A stretch of 53,743 nucleotides of DNA, taken from the NCBI RefSeq assembly GCF_000745455.1, contig NZ_JQJI01000014.1, forward strand, positions 1-53,743, given 5' to 3'. The stretch comes from Mesoaciditoga lauensis cd-1655R = DSM 25116 (lineage in GTDB: Bacteria; Thermotogota; Thermotogae; Mesoaciditogales; Mesoaciditogaceae). The position numbers and the translations under genes are program-made. Shown piece by piece: positions 13,926-53,332 of the stretch (positions are counted from its first letter, which is position 1; each line of letters begins with the position of its first letter). The notes below the pieces were generated by a model. It did no database searches and was not told the DNA's origin. It saw nothing but the letters and a program-made list of their open reading frames with translations.

Positions 13926-13965
13926 CTTATATAAAAACGACTCCATAGACATTTTGCCTTTTATG

Positions 13966-14075
13966 ATGAGAAAGCGAATCTAACAGGATGTTTGTATGCA
14001 GCGTGCTCTGTTATGAGCATCTTGTATGGGTATACGTCTGAATCAGTTTTGACAAAACTTCAAAAATTCTTTTTC
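13966..14075. repeat. Degenerate fragment of the palindromic repeat family
   Basis: Segments AAAGCGAATCTAACAGG (13971-13987) and CTCTGTTATGAGCATCTTGTAT onward to CAAAACTTCAAAAA (about 14006-14065) resemble pieces of the 28722-28822 repeat fragment. One of them is in inverted order. It is interpreted as decayed arms of an older copy next to the full-length copy at 14105. Short reading frames here are not credible genes. Confidence 0.4.
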
Positions 14076-14104
14076 GTGTGTCAGAGCTGATCTGATTAAA
14101 AGTA

Positions 14105-14466
14105 CTCAACCTGTGCGTCAATATTACAAAGTATTTCAAAAAAGGATTAAACCTCACCCTCGAAGTACTTGTCAGAACATATGAGCTCGCCGGCTGAGGA
14201 TTCAAAATATGAGGTTGAAAGGCATAGGAGGTGCCGAGAAAGCGAAGCACTCATGGACGAGTGTCTGAGCGTGCCTCATATTTTGAATTAGGAAGACGGA
14301 AAGAAGAGCGAATCCGTTCTGACAGGACTTCGAAAAAATTGCCTTGACCGCTTGGAAAGCGGGTTTTAAATCAAAAAGTGTTGTCAAATGTTGCCCACAT
14401 GTTCTTATAGAGAATTTTTGTAATGTCTCTTATAATATCTTTCGTAATGTTCACGCACAACATGAG
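14105..14466 (-). repeat. Full-length ~360-bp palindromic repeat with terminal inverted repeats (copy A)
   Basis: The termini are CTCA-n4-GTGCGTCAATATTAC (14105-14127) and the reverse complement of CTCA-n4-GTGCGTGAACATTAC (14444-14466). Inward, the arms keep matching: CGAAGTACTTGTCAGAAC on the left against CGAAGTCCTGTCAGAAC on the right (inverted). A perfect 15-bp stem, ATTCAAAATATGAGG (14200-14214) with its complement (14274-14288), closes an apex that holds two small hairpins (14221-14235 and about 14248-14263). Copy B at 19168-19528 is the same element in the opposite orientation. There is no coding capacity. It resembles a non-autonomous (MITE-like) element or a structured RNA/DNA element. 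Confidence 0.85.
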
Positions 14467-14479
14467 AAAAGTATAAAAG

Positions 14480-18500: not shown

Positions 18501-19166
18501 ATGAAAGCGAAAAGCATTCTTTTTCTCATTTCGATCTTCTTTTTTACGGTTGCTTCCGCTTTTCCGTTGAAATTTTACATTTCAAACGTGCAAGCGGCGA
18601 TAGAAGTAAAAGCCTTTTCCCTAACTCTAAAAGTAGGGTATCCTTATTCATCCTTAACATTGGGAAACGATTCTTATCTCAAGGTGGAAGCGAAAGAGTC
18701 CACTTCCACCTTTTATTTTGAAGGGGGATGGAGATTTTTAAAAGCGAAAAACATCTCACTTTTGCTTGGCGCACAGATGAAGATGGGAGTCTTGGAAAAC
18801 GCTTTATCAAACGATAGAATTCAAGAAATCGGAAGAGGTTATGCCTGGTTGAAAACGAACATTTTCTTCAAGGGAACAGGCGAATTTGATACCGCTCTCT
18901 CTTATTCAAGGTTCCTTACCAGCGCGGAGAAAAACGTGTCAAAGGATATGGTTTTTCTCTCTCCTCCGAACGTAAAAGGTGAAGAAGCAAACAAGTTAAA
19001 TGTCGATATTTCTTACGTTTTGGACATTGATAAAGGATTTAGCCTTGGACTTGTGTGTAACACTTCTTTTCCCTTTTCGGATGCTTTCATATTCTCTTCG
19101 CCAAATTTAGAGATTGGCATCTTTCTTTCTACGACCACAGAAGAACTGCAAAAAGAAATTTATTAA
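18501..19166 (+). CDS. Secreted beta-rich protein of unknown function, flagellar operon
   Basis: I do not recognise this family. The protein has 221 residues. The first ~20 form a clear signal peptide (Lys-rich start, hydrophobic ILFLISIFFFTVASA). The rest alternates polar and hydrophobic residues in short strands, with aromatic residues at strand ends, as in small outer-envelope barrels or periplasmic beta proteins. It starts four bases after flgL and ends one base before repeat copy B, so it is co-transcribed with the flagellar genes. An envelope or toga protein linked to the flagellum is plausible but unproven. Confidence 0.6.
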   Translation: MKAKSILFLISIFFFTVASAFPLKFYISNVQAAIEVKAFSLTLKVGYPYSSLTLGNDSYLKVEAKESTSTFYFEGGWRFLKAKNISLLLGAQMKMGVLENALSNDRIQEIGRGYAWLKTNIFFKGTGEFDTALSYSRFLTSAEKNVSKDMVFLSPPNVKGEEANKLNVDISYVLDIDKGFSLGLVCNTSFPFSDAFIFSSPNLEIGIFLSTTTEELQKEIY

Positions 19167-19167
19167 C

Positions 19168-19528
19168 TCATGTTGTGCGTGAACATTACAAAAGGTATTA
19201 CAAGAGACATTACAAAATTTCTCTGCGAGAACATGTAAGCAACATTTGACAACGCTTTTTGATTTAAAACTTGCTTTCCAAGCGATCAAGGAATTTTTTT
19301 CGAAGTCCTGTCAGAACGAATTCGCTCTTTTTTCCATCTTACAATTCAAAATATGAGGCACGCTCAGACACTCATCCGTGAGTTCTTCGCTTTCTCGGCA
19401 CGTCCTTGTGCCTCTCAACCTCATATTTGTGAATTTCCAGATGGGAGCTCATATGTTCCGACAAGTACTTCGAGGGTGAGATTTAATCCCTTTTTAAAAT
19501 ACTCTGTAACATTGGCGCACAGGTTAAG
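19168..19528 (+). repeat. Full-length ~360-bp palindromic repeat (copy B), inverted relative to copy A
   Basis: It starts CTCA-n4-GTGCGTGAACATTAC one base after the stop of the preceding gene and ends GTAACATTGGCGCAC-n4-TAAG. By eye about four in five bases match the reverse complement of 14105-14466. The closing stem is ATTCAAAATATGAGG (19344-19358) with CCTCATATTTGTGAAT (19419-19434, one extra base). The apical hairpins are CACTCA-TCCG-TGAGTt (around 19370-19385) and GGCAC-GTCCTT-GTGCC (19397-19412). As a transcribed hairpin it could also end the flagellar operon transcript. Confidence 0.85.
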
Positions 19529-28473: not shown

Positions 28474-28569
28474 GGGGCTTGACTGAGTGAAAGTGATGAT
28501 TTTATTGTATGAAGAGATGAGCTTTCGAAACACATGCCAGCACGGATTCACTCTTTTACCCATCTTACG
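28474..28569. repeat. Inverted 11-bp arms at the edge of repeat copy C1
   Basis: CGTAAGATGGG (about 28467-28477) and its complement CCCATCTTACG (about 28559-28569) form an inverted pair. The right arm lies inside copy C1. Probably debris of another repeat copy or an outer extension of the palindrome. The coordinates are approximate. Confidence 0.4.
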
Positions 28570-28701
28570 ACTCAAAAAACGAGGCACGCTCAGACACTCA
28601 TCCGTGAGTGCTTCGCTTTCTCAACACGTCCATGTGTTTCCCAACCTCGTTTTTAGAGTCTTCAGATGGAGAGTTCATAAGTGCTGGCGAGTGTTTCGAA
28701 G
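28523..28701 (+). repeat. Palindromic repeat, core copy C1
   Basis: The arms run from TTCGAAACACATGCCAGCAC at about 28524 to GTGCTGGCGAGTGTTTCGAA ending at 28700, and are complementary with few mismatches. The closing stem is GACTCAAAAAACGAGG (28569-28584) with CCTCGTTTTTAGAGTC (28645-28660). The apical hairpins are CACTCA-TCCG-TGAGTG (28595-28610) and AACAC-GTCCAT-GTGTT (28623-28638). Compared with copy B, paired bases have changed on both sides (GGCAC/GTGCC to AACAC/GTGTT; ATGAGG/CCTCAT to ACGAGG/CCTCGT), so the fold is kept while the sequence changes. Confidence 0.8.
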
Positions 28702-28721
28702 AGGAGAAAGGGTGGAAAAAA

Positions 28722-28830
28722 CCTGTTAAATTCGCTTTCACGGCACATCCTGTGCCTCCAACTCTGTTATTTCACATCTTGTATGCCGTCTTCATATGTT
28801 TTGACAGAAACTTCAAAAAAGGTGAGAGAA
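28722..28830 (+). repeat. Diverged fragment of the palindromic repeat family
   Basis: It contains an apical hairpin GGCAC-ATCCT-GTGCC (28742-28756), a preceding arm CCTGTTAAATTCGCTTTC, and a distal arm with CATATGTTTTGACAGAAACTTC, which matches the distal arm of copies B and D. The left closing stem is not recognisable. It is a partial or decayed copy. The reading frames spanning 28487-28946 are not genes. Confidence 0.55.
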
Positions 28831-28862
28831 AGGCGAAGAAAAAGCATGATCAATCTGAAACC

Positions 28863-28941
28863 CAGCCAGCACAATTCACTCTTTTATCCATCTTACGGCT
28901 CAAAAAACGAGGCACGTTCAGACACTCATCCGTGAGTGCTC
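28863..28941 (+). repeat. Half copy of the palindromic repeat (C2), truncated at the apex
   Basis: The left arm (CAGCCAGCAC at about 28864, CCATCTTACG, then CTCAAAAAACGAGGCACG) and the first apical hairpin CACTCATCCGTGAGTG follow copy C1 closely. Similarity stops abruptly after GTGAGTGCT at about 28940, and the right arm is missing. Confidence 0.7.
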
Positions 28942-28974
28942 TCTGATGAATTTCTTAACTCGGTGGGAAATTAC

Positions 28975-29004
28975 AAAAAAGAGCGCTTAAGCGCTCTTTT
29001 TTTT
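28975..29004. terminator. Bidirectional intrinsic terminator
   Basis: The perfect palindrome GAGCGCTTAAGCGCTC (28981-28996) has A6 on its left and T8 on its right, so it works on either strand. On the minus strand the stop codon TAA of the ABC ATPase gene lies inside the palindrome (28987-28989). It separates convergent transcription units. Confidence 0.9.
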
Positions 29005-53249: not shown

Positions 53250-53332
53250 TCATATGTTTTGACAAGCACTTCGAGGGTGGGATGATTTAATCCCTTTTTG
53301 AAATGCTTTGTAACATTGACGCATAGGTTGAG
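53250..53332 (+). repeat. Right-end fragment of the palindromic repeat (copy D)
   Basis: The stretch from CATATGTTTTGACAAGCACT through GGGATGATTTAATCCC to GTAACATTGACGCATAGGTTGAG matches the distal ~85 bp of copy B, including its terminal inverted repeat. The rest of the element is absent. 53172-53249, between rho and this fragment, shows neither a gene nor a clear terminator. Confidence 0.7.

Follow-up and report, generated by a model that had tools for sequence, protein, structure and literature searches.

What is the palindrome of about 360 bp that lies at positions 14105-14466 of this contig of Mesoaciditoga lauensis, a thermophilic member of the Thermotogota, and to what does its branched apex belong? 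A preliminary description of the window (the whole stretch of 53,743 nucleotides analyzed here) had read it as an element that joins the features of a MITE to those of a folded RNA, and had not recognized it as a member of any described family. As set out below, the combined reading is borne out by terminal inverted repeats (TIRs), 7-bp target duplications, high copy number, insertion sequence (IS) partners, and covariation.

Copies, ends, and target duplications

Both full-length copies named in the preliminary description were recovered, the start of the second now being placed at 19167. Each is flanked by 7-bp target duplications, which that description had not included. The copies, their parts, and their relatives in the window are listed here; the strand given for an element is that of its core and GGA triplets.

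13930..14075, plus strand: decayed, doubtful core relative (E 0.014)
14098..14104, no strand: left target-site duplication of copy 1, AAAAGTA
14105..14466, plus strand: copy 1, full-length type-A element
14105..14127, plus strand: left TIR of copy 1, CTCAACCTGTGCGTCAATATTAC, no mismatch
14203..14285, plus strand: TwoAYGGAY-type core of copy 1, covariance model match of 106.8 bits
14227-14229 and 14255-14257, plus strand: loop GGA triplets of the copy 1 core
14444..14466, minus strand: right TIR of copy 1, CTCATGTTGTGCGTGAACATTAC, no mismatch
14467..14473, no strand: right target-site duplication of copy 1, AAAAGTA
19160..19166, no strand: target-site duplication of copy 2, TTATTAA, overlapping the end of the upstream ORF
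19167..19528, minus strand: copy 2, full-length type-A element
19347..19430, minus strand: TwoAYGGAY-type core of copy 2, model match of 103.7 bits
19529..19535, no strand: second target-site duplication of copy 2, TTATTAA
28523..28941, minus strand: truncated two-core (type D) relative, from sequence homology and core-model matches
53250..53332, minus strand: type-A end fragment of 83 bp, element positions about 1-80

The two copies are 88.5% identical and lie in opposite orientations, copy 2 abutting the stop codon of the ORF at 18501-19166. Their folding energies are −114.5 kcal/mol (z −5.9) and −118.2 kcal/mol (z −7.3) relative to shuffled sequence, and the closing stem of 15 bp and the pair of hairpins at the tip, noted earlier, are both present. 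The matching terminal repeats were likewise confirmed, the pattern CTYANNNTGTGCGTSAAYRTTAC occurring five times in the window against 0.02 expected. Among the partial copies first reported, the one at 53250-53332 is indeed an end fragment. Those within 28523-28941 are homologous to the element but for the most part represent a related subtype in which two cores lie in tandem; the core model matches at 28573-28656 (105 bits) and 28715-28774 (20 bits, partial), and a truncated core at 28901-29004 scores 33 bits. The tentative copy at 13966-14075 is no more than a weak, decayed, and doubtful relative. A weak terminator-like hairpin, CCGCTTGGAAAGCGG, lies 3′ of the core at 14348-14362; its stem recurs in relatives and its GGA loop does not.

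The element is 362 bp long and non-coding, and it recurs both in the rest of the genome and in relatives. In the host assembly (2.17 Mb, 65 contigs), copy 1 has at least 40 long matches, mostly near full length, and the terminal pattern occurs 247 times compared with none in a reversed control; the TIR consensus of the copies is CTYA-n3-TGTGCGT..TTAC. An exact 7-bp target duplication, with zero shift allowed, flanks 17 of 44 aligned full copies, where 0.5 would be expected by chance and 2,000 shuffles of the pairing yielded at most four among 44. The duplicated targets are 82% A+T, and all 69 sampled copies lie between ORFs. With genes called by a simple ORF rule, the spacers of these 69 copies were divergent in 26 cases, convergent in 12, tandem sense in 13, and tandem antisense in 18; type-A copies thus favored neither strand with respect to genes, an observation that tells against a role within host mRNAs. 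Apart from the hairpin at 14348-14362, promoter and terminator scans of the element gave results no better than about chance level, with no conserved promoter found. In a relative of the same genus (G001), the syntenic spacer, as judged by tblastn, lacks the full element at the insertion point but holds a remnant in the opposite orientation. Judged by its ends, its duplications, and its copy number, the 362-bp element is a true MITE for which transposition is shown.

Partner insertion sequences

IS partners were located by searching relatives for the TIR. The genome G001 contains a 1262-bp element (L140) with a DDE_5 transposase fragment, and a genome of another family (G011) contains a complete IS of 1366 bp (L185:641-2006) with a 415-aa ORF, the TIRs CTCAACATGTGCGTG/CTCATCCTGTGCGTG (of the form CTCA-n3-TGTGCGTG), and the 7-bp duplication TTAACTA. 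Three transposases of this IS class score above the cut-off for PF01609 (DDE_Tnp_1), and the motif Y-x2-R-x3-E-x6-K (YREK) of the IS4 superfamily of DDE transposases was read in those of L185, L176, and L177. The NCBIfam IS4/IS701 equivalog cut-offs were not reached by these transposases, the best score being 132 bits against a cut-off of 250. One end of the IS at L176 in G001, CTCACCCTGTGCGTGAACATTACGAAATATGTTACAAG, is similar to the right arm of the MITE over a stretch that continues past the TIR. In the host, contigs C4, C12, C43, and C44 break off within one IS of this kind, a few hundred bases inward of a TIR of this class, a pattern expected of a collapsed multicopy IS. On host contigs C13 and C2, pairs of TIRs separated by about 1.9 kb were considered as further IS candidates and rejected, being neighboring MITE copies.

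Two side observations concern this IS class. In the IS leader at the host contig ends (L179-L182), an inverted repeat, CCGACAACACCTC..GAGGTGTTGCCGAC, would hide the ribosome-binding site of the transposase. At L176:2055-2361 in G001, a 307-bp TIR-bounded element interrupts a transposase gene of the same class.

The branched core and its relatives

At gathering score, Rfam reported only tRNAs in the whole window, and a permissive Rfam search of the element itself returned only implausible matches. The host copies score 22-27 bits with the TwoAYGGAY model (RF01731), below its gathering score of 43, and loci above that score occur in the Thermotogota family f7 (up to 52 bits) and in gammaproteobacteria (up to 55 bits). 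A covariance model built from ten family-f1 cores only (R1) recovered the f7 gathering-score loci L080, L081, and L036 (E 0.0009 to 0.013) together with gammaproteobacterial cores. Across 50 matched cores, 94.8% of cells are paired and 23 of 24 pairs show changes on both sides, in an alignment fitted to the structure; an unfitted alignment of ten sequences has double changes in seven pairs. The covariation score of the 50 cores is 0.616, as against 0.169 after shuffling and less than 0.09 for slid structures.

Each of the two core hairpins exposes a GGA triplet in its loop, with a spacing of 25 bases between the two. The second loop reads AYGGAY in all 44 type-A copies, while the first is mostly AGGAY, one base short, in type A and ACGGAY or AUGGAY in types B and D. 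With TwoAYGGAY the core shares the adjacent pair of GGA-loop hairpins, the basal stem, the tandem G-A pairs, and the AGCGAAGC..CUGAGCG junction; it differs in that the family-f1 copies fall below the gathering score, in the often shortened first loop of type A, and in that the RNA here forms the body of an IS-type MITE, an arrangement not described in the literature searched. On the strength of homology and covariation, the core is homologous to TwoAYGGAY, so the branched apex is not new. The earlier statement that the element belongs to no described family therefore stands for the element as a whole, which had no match here or in the literature searched, but not for its apex.

A pattern for the second core hairpin has 186 sites in the host genome and none in the control. 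Core-bearing relatives include a Mesoaciditoga sp. and Thermotogae MAGs, the sister species having only six close core sites. Several arrangements occur. Type B has the same TIR, but its left arm is longer and its first loop has six bases; type C places the core between other ends, apparently GTGTGGGTA; and in type D, of about 725 bp, two cores are arranged in tandem at a distance of about 290 bp, as in the 725-bp host copy at C34:9385-10109 (L244:886-1610), which has TTATTAA flanks on both sides. A subtype with an identical internal deletion was found at several places. The f7 repeats with similar cores have unrelated ends, such as GTGTCCAATTAGTAAAG. RF01731 itself recurs as a dispersed multicopy repeat in gammaproteobacterial MAGs, three of which have 23, 11, and nine matches. 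Given the other ends in type C and f7, the module may have been exchanged. The idea that the core is a transposon in its own right was dropped; in G004 the same outer TIR lies further out, so that the core there is simply the best-conserved part.

Several further features of these loci were noted. Of 16 sampled loci whose single or paired cores fell outside the TIR list, 14 have a downstream gene that faces the element. Both in Thermotogota and in a Gynuella MAG, neighboring TwoAYGGAY copies are often inverted relative to each other, with a few hundred bases between them (inverted-pair loci L080, L036, L041, and L095 of family f7; C44, C92, C2, and C11 of G104). The dispersed RF01731 repeat of an Oceanospirillaceae MAG (L195, L202, L206, L219), with 23 matches in one genome, has the ends TTTTCTTTGGTTCCGTTTCTTTT..AAAAGAAATGAAC. 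In Rhodopseudomonas (L203, L204), the core pattern also matches a palindromic repeat, CATTGCGAGCGCAGCGAAGCAATCC.., that is seemingly unrelated.

Like other bacterial IS-derived MITEs, the element is short and non-coding, with TIRs, 7-bp duplications, AT-rich intergenic targets, an IS partner, and a stable fold; QMITE2 of Coxiella, for example, has 7-9 bp repeats and TIRs of 23-29 bp (PMC10969869). It differs from them in carrying a module that is conserved, shows covariation, and is homologous to an Rfam RNA, and in the presence of similar cores in repeats with other ends. BOX and SPRITE of Streptococcus are also MITE-like repeats with possible regulatory RNA modules (PMC10969869), but those modules are T-box-like and terminator-like rather than hairpins of the CsrA type.

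Constraint on the core and a possible link to CsrA

TwoAYGGAY was first listed in PMC2864571 and was proposed to be a CsrA-binding RNA in 2014 (PMC4333381). The host encodes a canonical CsrA (MLVLRRKIGEG...ILREELY), and a search of the host and 60 relatives found CsrA in 51 of these 61 genomes. In the literature searched, a partial collection, no paper was found that links TwoAYGGAY or CsrA to bacterial MITEs. The sponge RNAs CsrB, RsmY, and RsmZ similarly have several GGA hairpins and are expected to bind CsrA bivalently; they are, however, host sRNA genes with known transcripts, whereas the cores described here are dispersed transposon copies without a recognized promoter.

The distribution of variants among the 44 type-A copies bears on what the core is kept for. 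Variants common to at least four copies occur at 63 of 169 outer sites compared with six of 139 core and inner sites (P = 3e-13), about eightfold fewer, and three of these six inner sites are loop pyrimidines (the Y of AYGGAY); counts of sites are the safer figure here because shared variants are not independent events. Private variants, those found in a single copy, do not differ significantly in frequency between the core with its inner stem (0.70%) and the rest of the element (0.94%; P = 0.15). The scarcity of common core variants together with equal private rates implies that the core is constrained in spreading lineages and not copy by copy, and the equal frequency of private mutations in the core that resident copies are not visibly maintained. 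On this reading of the variants, the module is preserved in the lineages that give rise to new copies, while resident copies decay. Such lineage-level constraint points to the element as the beneficiary and makes it less likely that the copies are strictly maintained as a host sponge.

These data allow three other accounts to be weighed. Were the copies to titrate CsrA jointly as a dispersed counterpart of CsrB, retained through selection at the level of the host, the 186 core sites, the resemblance of the two-core type D elements to multi-hairpin sponges, and the near-complete retention of the loop GGA (in 43 and 44 of the 44 type-A copies for the two loops) would all be natural. Yet neutral decay at the observed rate would leave GGA equally intact, and the private mutations in the core, the lack of an own promoter in our scans, and the few core sites in the sister species tell against such selection, so that we consider this account unlikely. 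It is similarly improbable, in our view, that the core functions at the DNA level, or in an RNA involved in transposition, through a fold needed by the transposase or a host factor and unrelated to CsrA. Constraint on the spreading lineage is what a cis-acting transposition sequence would show, but the same-ended IS elements L185 and L140 lack the core, as does the 299-bp TIR-bounded L157, and the same core occurs in repeats with unrelated ends, with an AYGGAY loop pattern conserved between phyla. The element could finally be a plain MITE whose palindrome is an accident of origin and whose TwoAYGGAY-like apex is a convergence. Palindromic MITEs are common and the host copies do score below the RF01731 gathering score; this account is nonetheless already disfavored by the compensatory changes in the 50 cores, the R1 matches to gathering-score loci in another family, and the paucity of common variants in the core, and we regard it as very improbable.

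The best explanation, to which we give a probability of about 0.6, is a non-autonomous MITE that carries an RNA module predicted to be transcribed and to bind CsrA. Its outer ends match, or are derived from, those of IS4-superfamily ISs (DDE transposase, YREK motif), and a transposase of this superfamily most likely moves it in trans and makes the 7-bp duplications, as the ends and duplications suggest. The inner ~175 bp, ending in the branched core, form the TwoAYGGAY-type RNA module, as homology and covariation show. In a transcript along the core strand, the two GGA-loop hairpins would form a predicted bivalent site for a CsrA dimer. Because selection acts on spreading lineages and not on resident copies, we infer a benefit of the module to the element itself, for instance through CsrA bound to transcripts that contain the element or through titration of CsrA during bursts; an effect as a host-level sponge would be a possible by-product.

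If so, a selfish element may be spreading CsrA decoys around the genome. A broader and more doubtful extension is that a CsrA-binding module, spread by a transposon lineage and taken up by mobile repeats across phyla, repeatedly rewires or titrates the Csr system. With TwoAYGGAY as their constrained core, these IS-type MITEs provide a vehicle for an Rfam family whose function has been unproven since 2010. With 186 core sites in one genome, comprising many alleles and insertion sites, the element amounts to a natural experiment, and the Mesoaciditoga cores offer a direct test of the CsrA hypothesis outside gammaproteobacteria. The element also illustrates a way in which a transposon might influence a global post-transcriptional regulator.
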